DNA of 64,000 nucleotides. Origin: Pirellulales bacterium (GTDB lineage: Bacteria > Planctomycetota > Planctomycetia > Pirellulales > Thermoguttaceae). Where the stretch lies: contig JAFGDS010000118.1 in NCBI GenBank assembly GCA_016931995.1, positions 1 to 64,000 of the forward strand. The letters run 5' to 3'. The translations under genes and the position numbers were made by a program. Positions 4,118 through 63,410 of this stretch are shown one piece after another; the stretch's first letter is position 1; each line of letters starts with the position of its first letter. Under the pieces are notes generated by a model that ran no database searches, had not been told where the DNA came from, and saw only the letters and a list, made by a program, of their open reading frames with translations.

Positions 4118-4150
4118 AGAGGCTTCCGCCGAGCGGTCAACCCACCGAAT

Positions 4151-4268
4151 GCCACTGACTCTGCTTGCGTGCCACTGGCTCTGCTTGTGTGCCACTGGCT
4201 CTGCTTGTGTGCCACTGGCTCTGCCAGTGCGCGTCAGCAAGGGCGCACTGGCGAAGCCAGTGGCACTC
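4151..4268. repeat. Family B repeat with a four-fold 20-bp tandem array
   Basis: Units starting at 4151, 4171, 4191 and 4211 are near-identical 20-mers of the form GCCACTGGCTCTGCTTGTGT. The last runs into the canonical hairpin CACTGGCTCTGCCAGTG. An inverted arm (GCACTGGCGAAGCCAGTGGC) follows at 4245-4264. Other family B copies are at 24875, 40328, 48822, 56514 and 63305, but only this one has the arm multiplied. Confidence 0.9.
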
Positions 4269-23305: not shown

Positions 23306-24751
23306 ATGCAACACGAGGAGGGGATGAGCATCGTCGTGGTGGGCGCCTCGGGCGATTTGGCGCGGAAGAAGATCTTCCCGGCCCTGTTCTCCCTCTATTG
23401 CCAGGGCTGTCTGCCCGAGCGATTCCAGATCTTCGGCTTTGCCCGCTCGCGGTTCGACCACGCCGAGTTTCGCCAGCGGATCATGGAACATCTGACGTGC
23501 CGGTATGCCCCGGGCGAGTCGTGCGCGGCCCGGATGGAGGAGTTCCTCGCGCGGTGCTTCTACATGGCCGGCGGGTACGACTCGACCGACGCCCTGCTCG
23601 ACCTGTTCGTGCTGATGCGCGAGCAGGAAGGGGGCGGCCGAGCCGACCGGTTCTACTACCTCGCCATTCCGCCGTCCATCTTTCTCGACGTCGCCCGGTC
23701 GATCGGCAACGCGGGACTGGTCAGTTGCGGCGTCGAGCGGCCGTGGTCGCGCGTGGTGCTCGAGAAACCGTTTGGACACGACCGCGCGTCGTCCGACATG
23801 CTGGCCGAGGCCATGGCCGACGTGTTCGTCGAGCCGCAGACGTACCGGATCGACCACTATCTGGGCAAGGAAGTGATCCAAAACCTCATGGTCCTGCGCT
23901 TCGCCAATCTGGTGTTCGAGCCCGTCTGGAACCGCCGCTATATCCGCAACGTCAAGATCCTGTGGAAGGAGAATCTCAGCACGGAGGGCCGCGGCGGCTA
24001 CTTCGATCAGTACGGCATCATCCGCGACGTGTGCCAGAATCATCTCTTGCAGATTCTCTCGCTCGTGGCCATGGAACCGCCCGGGCGGTTCAACGCCGCG
24101 AGTATCGCCCTGGAGAAGGTCAACGTGCTCCGCGGCGTGCCGCCGCTTACGCTGGACGATGTCGTGCTGGGGCAGTACGTGGCGGGCGAGCACGCCGGTC
24201 GGCGCTGGGCGGCCTACACGGACGACCCGACCGTGCCGGACGACTCGCGGACGCCGACCTACGCCGCCGCGCGGCTGGCGATCGACAACGACCGCTGGCG
24301 GGGCGTGCCCATCCTGATCGAGGCCGGCAAGGGCCTCGACGCCCGGATGACGGAAATCCGCGTCCAGTTTCGCGACGTGCCGCAAGACCTGTTCCCGGAC
24401 GCGAACGGCTCTCCAGCGGCCAACGAGCTGGTGATCCGCGTGCAGCCGGACGAGTCGATTCAGCTCTCCATCGTGAACAAGGTGCCCGGCATGGGCATGA
24501 AGATGGCCAACCGGAACCTCGACCTCCGCTACAAGGCGGCTTTTTCCGAGCAGATCCCCGACGCGTACGAAAGCCTGTTGTTGGACGTGATGCGGGGCGA
24601 TCGGAGTCTGTTCATCCACCGCGAGGAGCTTCAGGCGGCGTGGGACATCTTCACGCCGCTCTTGCACGAGATTGACGCCCGCCGCGTCGTCCCCCAGTCG
24701 TATCCCTTCGGCGCGAGCCGCCCGACCGCCGCCGAGAAGCTCGTGCCGTGA
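23306..24751 (+). CDS. zwf: Glucose-6-phosphate 1-dehydrogenase
   Basis: The protein has 481 aa. It oxidises glucose-6-phosphate to 6-phosphogluconolactone with NAD(P)+ reduction, the entry to the oxidative pentose phosphate pathway. The nucleotide-binding motif GASGDLARKKIFPALF is at the N-terminus. The substrate-binding signature RIDHYLGKE and the downstream KEVIQNLMVLRFAN are intact, as are the C-terminal features EAGKGLDARMTEIRVQF. The ATG at 23306 (overlapping GTG 23303) has CAGGAG seven bases upstream. It follows the symporter relic; no gnd or pgl lies nearby. Confidence 0.96.
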   Translation: MQHEEGMSIVVVGASGDLARKKIFPALFSLYCQGCLPERFQIFGFARSRFDHAEFRQRIMEHLTCRYAPGESCAARMEEFLARCFYMAGGYDSTDALLDLFVLMREQEGGGRADRFYYLAIPPSIFLDVARSIGNAGLVSCGVERPWSRVVLEKPFGHDRASSDMLAEAMADVFVEPQTYRIDHYLGKEVIQNLMVLRFANLVFEPVWNRRYIRNVKILWKENLSTEGRGGYFDQYGIIRDVCQNHLLQILSLVAMEPPGRFNAASIALEKVNVLRGVPPLTLDDVVLGQYVAGEHAGRRWAAYTDDPTVPDDSRTPTYAAARLAIDNDRWRGVPILIEAGKGLDARMTEIRVQFRDVPQDLFPDANGSPAANELVIRVQPDESIQLSIVNKVPGMGMKMANRNLDLRYKAAFSEQIPDAYESLLLDVMRGDRSLFIHREELQAAWDIFTPLLHEIDARRVVPQSYPFGASRPTAAEKLVP

Positions 24752-24874
24752 CGGGGGGGCGGGGGGTGGGGGGCGAGGGTGGTTGATCCCCACGGCCGCG
24801 CCTCGGCGCCGCGTCGTTGGCCGCCGCTTGTGTTGTGATTCCGCATTGTGGGATCGTGGGGAAAGCCGTCTTTT

Positions 24875-24953
24875 GAGTGCCACTGGCTCCGCCAGTGCGC
24901 GCCGTCGTGGGCAATCGGCGTGGAATCCCTCACTGGCAGAGCCAGTGGCACTC
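24875..24953. repeat. Family B repeat, canonical 79-bp copy
   Basis: The arm GAGTGCCACTGGCTCCGCCA... is mirrored by ...GGCAGAGCCAGTGGCACTC. Each arm holds its own hairpin CACTGGC/GCCAGTG. This is the cleanest copy and defines the family. Confidence 0.92.
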
Positions 24954-25061
24954 ACTGAATAAGACCCCAACAGCGTGAATCACTACGCTAGCGGTTTCGC
25001 GGGGAAGAACGCTCCCCTGGACCATCGTCGGGCAGCCGGTCCCAAAAAAACGGCTGGGTTC

Positions 25062-25089: not shown

Positions 25090-25111
25090 TTGATAGTATT
25101 AAAGGTGGGTG

Positions 25112-28097: not shown

Positions 28098-28153
28098 GGT
28101 AGGTGCTCCTGGAGGATGATTGGGAGGGAAGGAATCTTTGACCGTGCGAAATT

Positions 28154-28226
28154 CACCACGGAGACACGGAGAACACGGAGTTTGTTTCTTTTGCGACTCT
28201 CCGTGTCCTCCGTGTCTCCGTGGTGA
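28154..28226. repeat. Family A inverted repeat, short form (73 bp)
   Basis: Arms 28154-28180 and 28197-28226 are the CACGGAGA-type tandem units and their complement, with only 16 bp between them. The spacer is about 110 bp shorter than in the 2613 copy. Confidence 0.85.
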
Positions 28227-29224: not shown

Positions 29225-29293
29225 GGTCGTTCTCCGTGTCTTTTTTTGTTGGATCAAAGTGGTTGCGGCGAACTGGTTTGCTTTCCCTTCCAA

Positions 29294-29362
29294 GTCATCC
29301 TGAGCGAAGCGAAGGATCTCGTCCAAGAATCACACGAGATTCTTCGCTTCGCTCAGAATGAC
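29294..29362. repeat. Family C repeat, canonical 69-bp copy
   Basis: GTCATCCTGAGCGAAGCGAA is mirrored by TTCGCTTCGCTCAGAATGAC. Each arm holds the small hairpin ATCCT...AGGAT. Confidence 0.92.
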
Positions 29363-29455
29363 TGGCTTTGGCGCCACGCCATTCACTGTACCCCAAGCGT
29401 GCCACCGACTGATCCTCGGGGTGTGTTACCCACTCAAAACAACCTCACCATCCTA

Positions 29456-34551: not shown

Positions 34552-34632
34552 AACCACGGATGAACACGGATGAACACGGATGGGCGGTCCATATTCAGAT
34601 CCATCTGCGTTTATCCGTGTTCATCCGTGGTT
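34552..34632. repeat. Family D inverted repeat (CACGGATGAA units), 81 bp
   Basis: The left arm (34552-34582) has three units of CACGGATGAA type. The right arm (34602-34632) is the complement (TTATCCGTGTTCATCCGTGG). A second, diverged copy is at 49596-49697. Confidence 0.88.
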
Positions 34633-37754: not shown

Positions 37755-37886
37755 ATCTTTTGGAGCGGGGGAGAGCACGCGTGGGGGACAAGAGAATGGT
37801 GGGGGACAGCCCGCGATCCGTCAAGGGGAAAACCACCCCGCTGGCCCGCATCGCAAGCGCGTCGATCGCCGTCCGATGCCCCCGAT

Positions 37887-38026
37887 CGTCATCCCGAGCC
37901 CCACTCGTCATCCCGAGAGCCCCACTCGTCATCCCGAGCCCCACTCGTCATCCCGAGCCCCGATCGTCATCCCGAGAGCCTCGCGCTTGTCATCCTGAGC
38001 GAAGCGAAGGATCTCAATGCGATGAC
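37887..38026. repeat. Family C repeat with a five-fold tandem arm array
   Basis: CGTCATCCCGAG cores begin at 37887, 37906, 37927, 37946 and 37965 (spacing 19, 21, 19, 19). A canonical TGTCATCCTGAGCGAAGCGA arm at 37988 and a short right end (GCGATGAC) follow. The array enters the 3' end of the FliL-like gene, whose stop (38014-38016) lies in the repeat. Confidence 0.9.
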
Positions 38027-39395: not shown

Positions 39396-40352
39396 ATGTC
39401 TGACGTGCTCCGATCCTGTTGCGAGGCATCGCGCGTGCTGATCGTGGTTAATCCCGCGGCCGGGGCTTCGTCGCCAGAGAGCCGCGTGGATCAGTTGGCC
39501 GGCTTGCTCACCGCGCGGGGACTGCGGGTCGAGGTGCTCACCGATTTGGACGGCGCGGCCCAGCGGGCGATCGCCTCCCATCGCGAGAGATCGCTTCGAG
39601 CCCTGGTGGGCGTGGGCGGCGACGGGACGGCGGCCGAACTGGTCAACCGCACGGATGCCGGCGTGCCCATCACGATGTTGCCGGCCGGAACGTCGAATCT
39701 ATTGTCCGGATACCTCGGCATGGAAAAATCGCCGGAGGGAGTTTGTCGCACCATCACGCACGGACGTTGCATCCAGCTTGACGCGGGTCGGGCGGCGGGA
39801 CGGCTGTTTACGCTGATGATGAGTTGTGGATTCGACGCCGACGTGGTTCAACGCCTGCATCGCGGCAGGTCCGGCCACATCGGACGCTACTCGTACGTCC
39901 CTCCGATCCTTTCCTCCATCCGGCACTACCGGTATCCTGAACTGCGGATCCACTGGGACGATTCCGAGGACGCCGCCGCGGCCCGTTCGACGTTGTCGGC
40001 AAGATGGTTCTTCGCGTTCAACCTGCCGTGTTACGCCGGCTGGCCGCCCGTGGCGCCGGAGGCCCTGGGCGACGACGGGCTGTTGGACGCGTGCACGTAC
40101 GCGCGCGGGTCGTTTTGGCACGGGGTGCGGCTGTTGACGGCCGTGTTGCGCCAGCGGCAGAACCGGCTGGCCGGCTTCGCGGTGCGACGGATCCGCCGCG
40201 TGCGGGTCGAGGCGTCCGAGGAGGTGCCCTATCAGATTGACGGAGATCCGGGCGGAGTATTGCCGGTCGAGGTGGAAGTGGTTCCCCGGAGATTGACGTT
40301 TCTCGTGCCAGGGGAAACGACGACGTCTGCCACTGGCCTTGCCCGTGCATGA
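39396..40352 (+). CDS. Diacylglycerol/sphingosine kinase-like lipid kinase
   Basis: The protein has 318 aa of the DAGK_cat fold. VLIVVNPAAG opens the domain, the nucleotide loop is ALVGVGGDGTAAELVN, and TMLPAGTSNLLSGYLGM matches the family's GTxNDxA region. The C-terminal lobe has the EVPYQIDGDPGG (DGE-like) motif. Such enzymes phosphorylate diacylglycerol or other lipids at the inner membrane. YegS-like and sphingoid-base kinases are alternatives. The final residues (TTSATGLARA) run into a family B repeat, so the C-terminus is repeat-derived. Confidence 0.85.
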   Translation: MSDVLRSCCEASRVLIVVNPAAGASSPESRVDQLAGLLTARGLRVEVLTDLDGAAQRAIASHRERSLRALVGVGGDGTAAELVNRTDAGVPITMLPAGTSNLLSGYLGMEKSPEGVCRTITHGRCIQLDAGRAAGRLFTLMMSCGFDADVVQRLHRGRSGHIGRYSYVPPILSSIRHYRYPELRIHWDDSEDAAAARSTLSARWFFAFNLPCYAGWPPVAPEALGDDGLLDACTYARGSFWHGVRLLTAVLRQRQNRLAGFAVRRIRRVRVEASEEVPYQIDGDPGGVLPVEVEVVPRRLTFLVPGETTTSATGLARA

Positions 40353-40429
40353 ATCGCGTGTGCCACGGGCTTTGCCAGTGTACGAATCACGGCAATACAT
40401 GAGCGGCACTGGCAGAGCCAGTGGCACTC
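40328..40429. repeat. Family B repeat overlapping the lipid-kinase 3' end
   Basis: TGCCACTGGCCTTGCCCGTG..., a second internal arm (GTGCCACGGGCTTTGCCAGTG), and the inverted arm GGCAGAGCCAGTGGCACTC at the right. The first 25 bp are coding for the upstream gene. Confidence 0.85.
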
Positions 40430-43467: not shown

Positions 43468-43541
43468 CGTCATCCTGAGCGCAGCGAAGGATCTCGTTGG
43501 CGTTGAAGGAGTCGAGATGCTTCGCTGCGCTCAGCATGACG
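43468..43541. repeat. Family C repeat
   Basis: CGTCATCCTGAGCGCAGCGA is mirrored by TTCGCTGCGCTCAGCATGACG. It carries compensating changes (GCAGCG/CGCTGC) relative to the 29294 copy, so pairing is conserved while sequence varies. Confidence 0.92.
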
Positions 43542-45059: not shown

Positions 45060-45133
45060 CGTCATCCTGAGCGAAGCGAAGGACCTCGTTGACCTTGAAG
45101 GAGGTCGGATGCTTCGCTTCGCCCAGCACGACG
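45060..45133. repeat. Family C repeat
   Basis: CGTCATCCTGAGCGAAGCGA is mirrored by CTTCGCCCAGCACGACG, upstream of the BNR gene. Confidence 0.88.
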
Positions 45134-46636: not shown

Positions 46637-47176
46637 GGCACCAGCCCTCGCTTCCTCCAAACCGATCGCGCCGGAACCGGCGCGCCCGGCAGCCCCGAGA
46701 CGTTTCCATCGCGCGGGCGTCCTCGCCGTCCACCCCTCGTCGGCGCGAGGGGACAAGGGGTGGACGCTTGGGAGAACGCTCGTTGGCGGCCGCCCCGCGG
46801 CGTCGAAGAGACCCGGCTGTCGGCGGCCACCACCCTCATTCTGCCCACGCCGCCCTTGGCGACAAGGAAAAATTGCGTCAATCTCACTCAGGAAATGCGT
46901 CAGGTCGCGTCGGCCTTCCTCGCCCTGAGCGTGGCCCCCGTCATCCTGAGCGAAGCGAAGGATCTCGTTGCCGCGGAACAACGGAGATGCTTCGCTCGGC
47001 ATGACGCGGCTCCACGGCGGCCACGTCCAGGTCAAACGCCGCGCAAGCGATACAGACGCTACCACCGCGCCAGACGGATGCGCGTGCCTGCCGTCTGGTT
47101 GGCCAAACACGGACGCGGCACAACGTGGCATAAAATTGGGAGGAACGCGCCGCCGCGCCACGGAGGAAGTACTGCC
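46637..47176. other. Intergenic region between divergent genes
   Basis: This 540-bp gap contains one family C repeat (46939-47006). I see no gene in the remainder; it should carry promoters for DUF1559 and the PPK2 gene. Confidence 0.55.
46939..47006. repeat. Family C repeat
   Basis: CGTCATCCTGAGCGAAGCGA is mirrored by TGCTTCGCTCGGCATGACG. The right arm has lost a few bases. Confidence 0.88.
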
Positions 47177-48821: not shown

Positions 48822-48889
48822 GAGTGCCACTGGCTCTGCCAGTGCTCCCAAAACACACGCGATTCAGCACTGGCAGAGCCAGTGGCACA
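48822..48889. repeat. Family B repeat
   Basis: GAGTGCCACTGGCTCTGCCA is mirrored by TGGCAGAGCCAGTGGCAC, upstream of leuD. Confidence 0.92.
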
Positions 48890-49559: not shown

Positions 49560-49595
49560 CGGGTAGATCACAGTTTTGTGAACCGTCAGGGGAAA

Positions 49596-49697
49596 GAAAC
49601 CGCGGATAGACGCGGATGAACGCGGATTGAGATGTCTCAAGATCGGGACGTTTAAGCAATCAACTATCTGCGTGTATCTGCGTTCATCCGCGGTTTC
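49596..49697. repeat. Family D inverted repeat, GC-shifted copy
   Basis: GAAACCGCGGATAGACGCGG... is mirrored by TATCTGCGTTCATCCGCGGTTTC. Both arms show A-to-G type shifts (CACGGA to CGCGGA) with pairing kept, relative to the 34552 copy. Confidence 0.85.
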
Positions 49698-49746
49698 TTC
49701 GCTTTGTCCTTGGCAAGAAGCATTCAGCGTGCGCCGTCGCGGCGTC

Positions 49747-51420: not shown

Positions 51421-51456
51421 GGGCAGCCGGGGGATAGGGGCCGCGATCGATTAGAC

Positions 51457-51530
51457 CTGTGGGAGGCGACTCCCGTCGCCGAACCATGCCTGCCTGCCAC
51501 GGAATCGGCGACGGGAGTCGCCTCCTACAG
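51457..51530. repeat. Family E inverted repeat
   Basis: CTGTGGGAGGCGACTCCCGT... is mirrored by ...ACGGGAGTCGCCTCCTACAG. Each arm carries the hairpin GGCGAC/GTCGCC. The other full copy is at 60046 (in the atp operon) and a half copy at 57477. Confidence 0.9.
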
Positions 51531-51697
51531 GGTTTTCCCGACGCTACGGCGGACACCCAAGGCGGCGTCCACTAAAACCCTCCTAGTCGAACGGATCCGC
51601 GCGGGCCTTGTCAAGCATCTTGGGGTGGCTTCTTCGCGCGACCAGAGGGGGTTTCGCGTCACCAAGGGTGGGATTATACTGGCGGGTCAACGAATAA

Positions 51698-51775
51698 GGG
51701 TGCCATGTCCACGCTCGTCGTGGACATGCCTTTCCGCCACACAACACGTCCACGACGAGCGTGGATATGGCACCC
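51698..51775. repeat. Family G inverted repeat upstream of nuoB
   Basis: GGGTGCCATGTCCACGCTCG... is mirrored by ...GAGCGTGGATATGGCACCC. Each arm forms its own hairpin ATGTCCACG/CGTGGACAT. It is the only copy in the window, and ends 42 bp before the nuoB start. Confidence 0.85.
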
Positions 51776-51816: not shown

Positions 51817-52422
51817 ATGACGGAACCCTGGATCGAAGGACGCTTCGAACATAACGTGCTGACCACCACGGTCGAGCAGGCAATCAACTGGGCAAGGCAG
51901 TCCAGCCTGTGGCCCATGACCTTTGGGCTGGCCTGCTGCGCGATCGAAATGATGTCGGCCGGGGCCAGCCGGTTCGACCTGGACCGCTTCGGCGCGGGCG
52001 CCTTCCGCCCCAGCCCCCGCCAGGCCGACCTCATGATCGTCGCCGGCACCGTCACGATGAAGATGGCCAGCCGCCTGCGCCGCCTCTACGACCAGATGCC
52101 CGAGCCCAAGTACGTCATCGCGATGGGCGCCTGCGCGATCGGCGGTGGTCCGTATTTCGAGCACGGCTACCACGTCGTCAAGGGCGTGGACCTCCTCGTG
52201 CCGGTTGACGTCTACGTGCCCGGCTGCCCGCCCCGCCCCGACGCCCTGCTGGAGGGCCTCATGCGACTCCAGGATAAAATCAAGGGCCACCGCATCGCCA
52301 AGCGTCCCCCGGCCGACGGCCAAAAAACCTGGAAGACCTTCGCCCGCCCCGGCGTCAAGCTCCCCGACGAGCTCCCCTTGCCGCTCTCCACCGGGTTCGT
52401 CAAGACGGACGAGAACCCGTAG
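51817..52422 (+). CDS. nuoB: NADH-quinone oxidoreductase subunit B
   Basis: The protein has 201 aa and is the complex I subunit that binds the terminal N2 [4Fe-4S] cluster. The cluster ligands are present: C40 and C41 in [10 protein letters not shown], Cys in [13 protein letters not shown], and Cys in [15 protein letters not shown]. It stands alone; no other nuo gene is in the window. ATG 51817 fits the family start; the frame open to its left has no family similarity. An isolated second NuoB (or 20-kDa paralogue) is possible. Confidence 0.95.
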
Positions 52423-52458
52423 GTCGGGCTGTGCCTGACACCGCGGGGGCATCAGGTT

Positions 52459-56513: not shown

Positions 56514-56577
56514 GTGCCACTGGCTCCGCTAGCGTGGAATCGTCCGCGTTTCCGAGCACTGGCGGAGCCAGTGGCAC
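56514..56577. repeat. Family B repeat
   Basis: GTGCCACTGGCTCCGCTAGC... is mirrored by GCACTGGCGGAGCCAGTGGCAC. It is immediately followed by the family H palindrome. Confidence 0.88.
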
Positions 56578-56583
56578 TCTACG

Positions 56584-56636
56584 GTAGGTCAGGCCGTGCC
56601 TGACAACACGTTCACGTCAGGCACGGCCTGACCTAC
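56584..56636. repeat. Family H perfect 21-bp-arm palindrome
   Basis: Arms 56584-56604 and 56616-56636 are perfectly complementary, starting GTAGGTCAGGCC, with an 11-nt loop. Inside each arm is a further hairpin GTCAGG/CCTGAC. The right arm encodes the last residues and stop of the Fe-S protein on the minus strand. Confidence 0.93.
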
Positions 56637-58551: not shown

Positions 58552-60114
<1,563 letters not shown>

Positions 60115-61021: not shown

Positions 61022-61045
61022 GTTCTTTCGTTATTATTCGTTGTT

Positions 61046-61093
61046 GCGAAGCCGCAAGCGGATTTCAAAATCACAAGCCGCTTGCGGCTTCGC
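61046..61093. repeat. Family F inverted repeat within the atp operon
   Basis: GCGAAGCCGCAAGCGG (61046-61061) is perfectly mirrored by CCGCTTGCGGCTTCGC (61078-61093), with a 16-nt loop, in the atpA-atpG gap. Confidence 0.92.
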
Positions 61094-61131
61094 ACGGAAT
61101 TCCCATCACGCCATGCAATTCTCACTGCGCA

Positions 61132-63304: not shown

Positions 63305-63410
63305 GTGCCACTGCTGGCTTGTCCAGCAGTGCCTTCCTCGCGTGTGCCACTGGCTCCGCCAGTGCTTAACCAGCTTCCATGGTCCAGCACTGGCATAGCC
63401 AGTGGCACTC
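63305..63410. repeat. Family B repeat within the atp operon
   Basis: GTGCCACTGCTGGCTTGTCC..., an altered first arm, then GTGCCACTGGCTCCGCCAGT and its mirror GCACTGGCATAGCCAGTGGC, in the atpF-atpH gap. The first arm changed in both halves of its hairpin (CTGCTGG/CCAGCAG) and still pairs. Confidence 0.9.

Follow-up and report, generated by a model that had tools for sequence, protein, structure and literature searches.

Inverted hairpin pairs of a Pirellulales genome and a RAYT clade flanked by GTG(C/G)-footed hairpins of varied stem

The window analysed here, a stretch of 64,000 nucleotides from a Pirellulales genome (G000; 5.43 Mb in 153 contigs), contains two 24-nt arms that are 96% complementary and separated by a spacer of 33 nt. 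On one side of them a zwf-like (glucose-6-phosphate dehydrogenase-like) gene ends at 24751, and on the other a fur-like regulator gene starts at 25109; both genes are named from a reading of their translations. Each arm is a hairpin of seven base pairs and a 3-nt loop with the tetranucleotide GTGC, its foot, at the outer end (GTGC, then CACTGGC-TCC-GCCAGTG, plus the inverted partner), and the feet point outward. Folded as single-stranded DNA, the segment reaches -34.6 kcal/mol (z -8.3; equalled by 0 of 200 shuffles), and in its lowest-energy fold the arms pair with each other rather than forming two small hairpins. This element belongs to a repeat family, B, found at six loci of the window (Table 1).

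Hairpin families in the window and across the genome

An earlier note on this DNA had ascribed a single layout, a hairpin within each arm and two arms facing each other, to six families (B, C, E, F, G and H). Inverted hairpin pairs beyond chance expectation are indeed found for B, C, E, G and H, but the description fails for F, since its 14 arms in a 458-kb sample (the window plus 20 stretches of the genome) include one adjacent pair, of opposite orientation; F is a real repeated hairpin that is rarely paired. Under one strict rule, the window holds seven inverted pairs of perfect hairpins (four B, two E and one H), and among 30 dinucleotide shuffles 29 yielded no pair and one yielded a single pair. 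Counted by family, E is present as two pairs, G as one pair, H as one pair and a lone arm, and C as several pairs. A further hairpin family, CACTGCTGG, absent from the earlier list, is also present. The foot of E and H is GTAG, as had been stated, both in the arms examined and in the matching RAYT flanks of relatives described below; that of B and G is GTGC. An Rfam search at gathering thresholds returned one tRNA and nothing else.

Several arrays depart from the simple pair. At 4150-4229, left arms of B form a tandem array with a 20-nt period, accompanied by degenerate right arms, and at 37880-37980 tandem CGTCATCCCGAG units, each a degenerate C arm, lie about 19-21 nt apart and lead up to a full C arm. 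Two more inverted-pair families, of CACCACGGAGACACGGAG and CACGGATGAACACGGAT types, have arms composed of short tandem units that form no hairpin; they gave six and up to ten matches, respectively, in the 458-kb sample.

Table 1. Positions of repeat features in the window and of the gene L006 (numbering is that of the window unless a contig is given)
Feature	Position	Strand	Remarks
Family B, tandem left arms, then inverted pair	4150..4266		
Family B pair of the earlier note	24874..24954		GTGC feet outward, 33-nt spacer; from arm complementarity and DNA fold
Family B pair, one arm degenerate	40328..40427		another degenerate arm between
Family B pair	48824..48888		23/23 complementary
Family B pair	56514..56577		degenerate left arm
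Family B pair	63344..63408		
Lone CACTGCTGG-family arm	63305..63331	+	GTGC foot
Family G pair	51698..51775		hairpins of GGGTGC, then CATGTCCACG
Family E pair	51456..51531		foot GTAG/GTGG, stem GGCGAC
Family E pair	60046..60114		foot GTAG
Family H pair	56584..56636		GTAG, then GTCAGGC-CGT-GCCTGAC
Family H arm, alone	52419..52439	+	
Family C pair	29293..29363		CGTC type
Family C pair	43468..43541		
Family C pair	45060..45133		degenerate in part
Family C pair	46936..47009		degenerate in part
Family F hairpins, inverted orientation	61045..61094		sole such pair seen
CACCACGGAGACACGGAG/CACGGATGAACACGGAT-type inverted pairs	2609-2797, 28153-28226, 34552-34632, 49594-49699		
RAYT gene L006	G000:C134:21554-22126		191 aa from presumed ATG; B hairpins either side

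The families extend across the genome. Perfect family B hairpins number 668, and a search for B with its foot, allowing up to two mismatches, gave 514 + 512 matches by strand (some hairpins being counted twice) against 4 + 2 for a backwards control. There are 115 G-type hairpins, 115 of the CACTGCTGG family, and 342 arms (178 + 164) of family C, which is a CGTC-tagged repeat. Of 75 footed B arms in the 458-kb sample, 59 lie in clusters, and neighbouring arms stand 21 times with feet outward, never with feet inward and 12 times in tandem, with 10 of the 21 outward spacers measuring 21-23 nt. Outward pairs were also counted for E (4), G (6), H (2) and C (12, from 13 adjacent cases), although one of the two H cases and at least one G case are a single palindromic hairpin read on both strands. 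Two inverted hairpins with outward feet and a short spacer, the arrangement of a REPIN or BIME dimer, are thus found repeatedly. In 59 B arms picked for a perfect GTGC foot and stem, and judged beyond the picked letters, a G two bases before the foot and a T at the first loop base occur in 59 of 59 and a C follows the hairpin in 80%; conservation ends sharply at the hairpin unit.

Compensating changes, reported earlier for several copies, were tallied by hand from the listed arms for G and C, where the claim is borne out by three pair types each. At stem position 5 the bases pair in all 13 G arms (six C-G, five T-A and two G-C, the partner base being read freely), and at the second, variable position they do so in 31 of 33 C arms (22 C-G, seven G-C and two T-A), the other two being G-T. 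In B, where six left-arm changes were usable, three are compensated and three are not, and the claim is unproven.

A RAYT-type gene beside family B and its homologues

Searching for Y1/RAYT genes with matching hairpin flanks, as the earlier note had proposed, gave seven Y1_Tnp matches in G000, one of which, L006 (the sole gene of its type in this genome), is closely boxed in by a genome-repeated hairpin: a B hairpin ends 19 nt before the presumed ATG and two more start 16 and 46 nt past the stop. A genome combining no RAYT-like gene with no covariation between arms had been named as the counter-case; G000 has seven Y1_Tnp matches, and its G and C arms covary. L006 scores 28.9 bits against PF01797 (cut-off 23) and 70.4 bits (E 1.5e-19) against the RAYT model NF047646 of NCBIfam, which is below the cut-off of 80 for that model; relatives of the clade above it include L126 (104.9) and L127 (102.4). 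The HUH histidines (H63, H65) and Y143 are invariant in 35 aligned clade sequences, giving the protein an HUH motif and a single Y1-type tyrosine. The structure predicted for L006 (pLDDT 91.4) comes closest, among solved ones, to 4ER8, in which a RAYT binds a REP hairpin (TM 0.62 by query, 0.71 by target), and on this model L006 has the predicted fold of a solved RAYT.

By itself the bracket at L006 is weak evidence, because B arms are frequent, at one per about 8 kb, and are also found close to L001 (within about 200 bp on both sides), L003 and L005, three further Y1 genes of G000. L001 was rejected as the B enzyme, its own, different hairpin pairs being nearest and the B arms outside them mere neighbours. 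L003 was rejected as the enzyme of either E or B, for the lone arm of each sits inside the 3' part of its reading frame. Since the bracket in its own genome proves little, the assignment of B to L006 is carried by comparison between genomes.

These other loci have features of their own. L001 (1360-2060 of C34) is an IS200-like Y1 gene (NF033573, 58.2 bits) bracketed by its own hairpins, CCCAGGGTTGCGGCGCAGCCGCTACCCTGGG and CCCCAACGGGG, in inverted copies, and may recall the published class 3 TnpA-REP. At L003 (1219-1285 of C13) a RAYT-like frame ends in the lone E arm and lone B arm; repeats have therefore landed in or beside a RAYT gene. The RAYT-like genes L002, L004 and L005 adjoin short direct repeats whose cores, GGGGAC or GGGACAG, lie near ...TATTGACA and which resemble the published GGGGWSAS motif; L004 contains an in-frame TGA.

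Of 197 relatives, 79 carry homologues of L006. A second collection consists of the best 80 among 539 confirmed loci; most of its records are titled Planctomycetota, and a small number bear the name Desulfomonile, Armatimonadetes or just 'bacterium'. The L006-type genes L219, L241 and L242, in records titled Desulfomonile and Armatimonadetes, represent either transfer between phyla or mis-binned contigs. Among these best 80, B hairpins adjoin 18 of 19 homologues with at least 59% identity (on both sides in 13) and one of 61 below that line, which was chosen after the list was seen; the exceptions are L186 (61%), which has no B, and L184 (55%), which does. After removal of 16 loci shared with the first set, the corresponding figures are 14 of 15 and one of 49. 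More distant members are boxed by other stems, among them CACTGCTGG, CACTGCCGG, CACTGGTGG, CATGCCCACG (of family-G type, as at L079) and CACGGC, which follow GGGTGC, GTGTGC or GGGTGG. Four distant members (L038, L040, L044 and L090) have long interrupted hairpins in their flanks in place of simple ones, and hairpin size therefore also varies within the clade.

The two flanks of a locus correspond to each other. Upstream flanks compared with their own downstream flanks in inverse scored 26.2, against 10.5 with those of other loci (reached in 0 of 2000 permutations), and the best partner was the opposite flank of the same gene in 44 of 68 loci with usable flanks. GTG(C/G)-foot hairpins were found in 51 of 69 and 46 of 69 flanks (upstream and downstream mixed, both orientations counted), compared with 4 and 2 in letter-shuffled flanks, 3 of 69 gene bodies and 13 of 126 segments lying 700-1000 bp away. 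Hairpins with other feet were counted in the same flanks: 2 and 6 for GTAG (shuffled, 3 and 1), and 2 and 2 for CGTC (shuffled, 2 and 3). Feet point outward in 55 upstream and 54 downstream cases of the clade, and inward in 17 and 13.

Stem sequence, moreover, follows enzyme sequence. Stem distance and protein distance are correlated over 52 loci (Mantel r 0.633; 0 of 5000 permutations) and over an enlarged set of 109 (r 0.573; 0 of 2000), and the 22 stem labels of these 109 loci call for at least 32 changes on the tree, while each of 1000 shuffles needed at least 50. These tests took 52 of 69 first-set and 57 of 64 new loci, the others (17 in the first set) having no GTG(C/G)-foot hairpin that passed the filter. 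The feet of the 109 loci, from a search limited to GTG(C/G), are GTGC in 82 and GTGG in 27. Of 35 genomes, 25 have an L006-type gene, and 20 of these contain five or more copies of one of three hairpin families; none of the other 10 does. This contrast is support and not a survey, because the 25 were partly chosen for known flanks. In G058, whose L006-type gene (L022) is flanked by CACTGCTGG, there are 558 CACTGCTGG hairpins and 28 of B.

Very probably, the hairpin pairs represent REP dimers (REPIN/BIME type) that RAYT-group HUH/Y1 enzymes have disseminated in single-stranded form, and family B belongs to L006. The L006-type enzyme would recognise foot, stem and loop on the folded strand, nick beside the foot and re-insert the element. 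Mobility of the pairs is here deduced; no insertion or excision event was seen among them.

Families E, G, H and C and the alternatives to dedicated enzymes

Among 30 RAYT loci taken from 60 relatives, members of two further RAYT clades have H- and E-type hairpins at their flanks. L109 and L110 are flanked by hairpins of the H design, GTAG followed by GTCAGG(T/C)AC, and L119 by four elements with the foot and stem of E, one of them with a stem mismatch; the loops at L119 have three bases, those of most window E copies four. Genes of the L119 type occur in six of 194 genomes, all six with a GTAGGAGG-kind hairpin on at least one side (both sides in four, by script) and with the stems GGCGAC, GGCGGC, GGCGAA, GGCGTC (twice) and GGGCTC. 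In G000 no match to an L119-type gene was obtained at E 1e-20, and its seven Y1 loci include no enzyme for E, G or H; these families look orphaned there because no matching enzyme was found. Together with the CACTGCTGG family, they would be leftovers of enzymes that the lineage has lost. The reading of the families as BIME-like pairs mobilised by RAYTs is accordingly supported, within limits: B, E, G and H have matching RAYTs here or in relatives, C has no Y1 gene beside it in the loci examined and F is mostly unpaired, and in G000 itself B alone is accompanied by its enzyme.

G and CACTGCTGG might not be orphans at all if L006 moved every GTGC-footed hairpin in trans, reading mainly the foot, an account that we regard as unlikely. 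B, G and CACTGCTGG share that foot and coexist in G000 (668, 115 and 115 hairpins) with one L006-type gene, and stem swaps were only mildly harmful in one group-3 enzyme described in the text of PMC8266576; against this, flanking stems track enzyme sequence tightly across the clade, and the hairpin balance of G058 leans to the stem that flanks its own gene rather than to B. Loss of dedicated enzymes is the reading that we retain for these families.

Family C resembles the others in its feet-outward pairs and coexists with B in G000, and could in principle be moved in trans by one of the same RAYTs. We judge this improbable, however, since C is confined to 13 of 197 genomes, all in one family, against 79 with L006 homologues; one C-bearing genome, G002 (15 C arms), lacks an L006 homologue; and no C arm was found beside the seven Y1 loci of G000 (the nearest C pair lying about 1.1 kb from L006) or in 30 of 49 Y1 loci of five other C-bearing genomes. 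The family is abundant in G000 and G034, and most relatives have none of it. By the definition of PMC3733652, as given in its text, C has the foot and stem start of a CGTC REP (CGTC/TGTC foot, A-T pairs at the first two stem positions), but the stem of 8-9 bp is replaced by a 5-bp outer stem, and the unpaired CCA-like tail by sequences like CTCG.

That the hairpins are instead unmoved intergenic signals under selection (transcription ends, mRNA stability or DNA binding), near RAYT genes because they are common between genes, is very improbable: the 24874-24954 pair is intergenic and strongly folding and B arms are likewise found close to other Y1 genes, but the hairpin flanking a RAYT is predicted by its protein across genomes, 0 of 10 genomes without an L006-type gene reach five copies against 20 of the 25 (partly chosen for flanks) with one, and conservation stops sharply at the hairpin unit.

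A candidate recognition patch and comparison with known REP systems

The clade was searched for residues that change together with the stem, after eight distant loci had been dropped. On a tree of 101 leaves the stem changes on 17 branches, and the nine protein columns best coinciding with these changes all fall within residues 79-123 (45 of 167 columns), where a mean of 2.7 is expected and nine never occurred in 2000 length-weighted random branch sets; the stretch was named after the ranking was seen. After correction none of the columns is exceptional on its own: the best p was equalled in 274 of 2000 random draws. The stretch is a lead for stem recognition, which would lie at about these residues. 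In the text of PMC8266576 a DNA-binding helix and the region after it are suggested to make the stem contacts of one RAYT group, and from its place after the HUH motif that helix may correspond to the helix of the L006-clade patch. We see about even chances that the L006 clade is an unrecognised RAYT branch whose enzymes read hairpins with a GTG(C/G) foot and whose target stem has switched on many occasions, the switch possibly sitting in one patch made up of the helix 79-99 and the strands at about 108-118. If so, it would amount to a naturally assembled set of enzymes with their matching hairpins, from which a recognition code could be read.

The nearest known systems are the GTAG REPs with their RAYT/TnpA-REP genes, or REPtrons (PMC3733652, PMC6006769, PMC8266576), which as described in those texts share with the present families a short hairpin with a four-base foot at one end, feet-outward dimers, hundreds of copies, an HUH/Y1 gene boxed by the same hairpin and a hairpin family particular to each enzyme; E and H carry GTAG itself. 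B and G, in contrast, have the foot GTGC, outside the published GT(A/G)G rule, and we therefore name them GTGC-foot REPs of a RAYT clade. Extrapolated from the guide rule of PMC8266576, by which GTAG selects CT or CA and GTGG selects CC, a GTGC foot would be predicted to select GC or GA. Further differences are that the L006 clade keeps its foot type and repeatedly switches its stem, and that four families of G000 have no matching enzyme there. Probably each of the many families of one design in a single genome traces back to an enzyme of its own, and most of these enzymes have since disappeared.

Family C is like the CGTC REPs of PMC3733652 in having CGTC before a stem that starts with AT, feet-outward dimers and, in the loci examined, no transposase beside it; it differs in its 5-bp outer stem, interrupted inner part and lack of the unpaired, mostly CCA, tail that the text of that paper describes with stems of 8-9 bp. 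The same text lists five phyla for CGTC REPs without Planctomycetes, and its abstract mentions both super-families in that phylum. Its statement that CGTC REPs have no dedicated transposase agrees with our result for C, which keeps the question of the missing CGTC enzyme alive and names genomes in which to look.

Unusual feet or structures have been published for deep-branching, GTGG-enriched TnpA-REPs (subclass 2.6 and class 3, in the text of PMC6006769). Class 3 is mostly planctomycete, and the L006 clade likewise has GTGG feet at 27 of 109 loci; yet class 3 is described there with a Y....Q motif whereas L006 has Y...N, and 82 of the 109 feet, in a search covering GTG(C/G), are GTGC. The REPs of Pseudomonas and Stenotrophomonas, as presented in the text of PMC3686654, are comparable in that copy number depends on a matching RAYT, loss of the enzyme leaves orphans and REP classes are defined by closeness to RAYT genes; the present case differs in phylum, in foot and in a wider range of stems within one clade.

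No GTGC-foot REP was found in the published text searched, and an earlier sighting may exist in figures or supplements holding consensus sequences, which lie outside that scope; among the matches listed for GCCACTGGC with 'repeat' in the full-text literature, all concern other subjects. Co-evolution of RAYTs and REPs is already published (in the texts of PMC3686654, PMC6006769 and PMC8266576). New are the GTGC foot, a RAYT clade whose natural stem specificities are numerous, the breadth of its stem switching, the candidate recognition patch and the linking of four families of one genome to enzyme clades. How a RAYT chooses its own hairpin has been resolved in vitro for few pairs (three were studied in PMC8266576, by its text); here one clade offers dozens of enzymes paired with hairpins whose foot hardly varies while the stem does, so that foot recognition becomes separable from stem recognition and the residues to swap are indicated.
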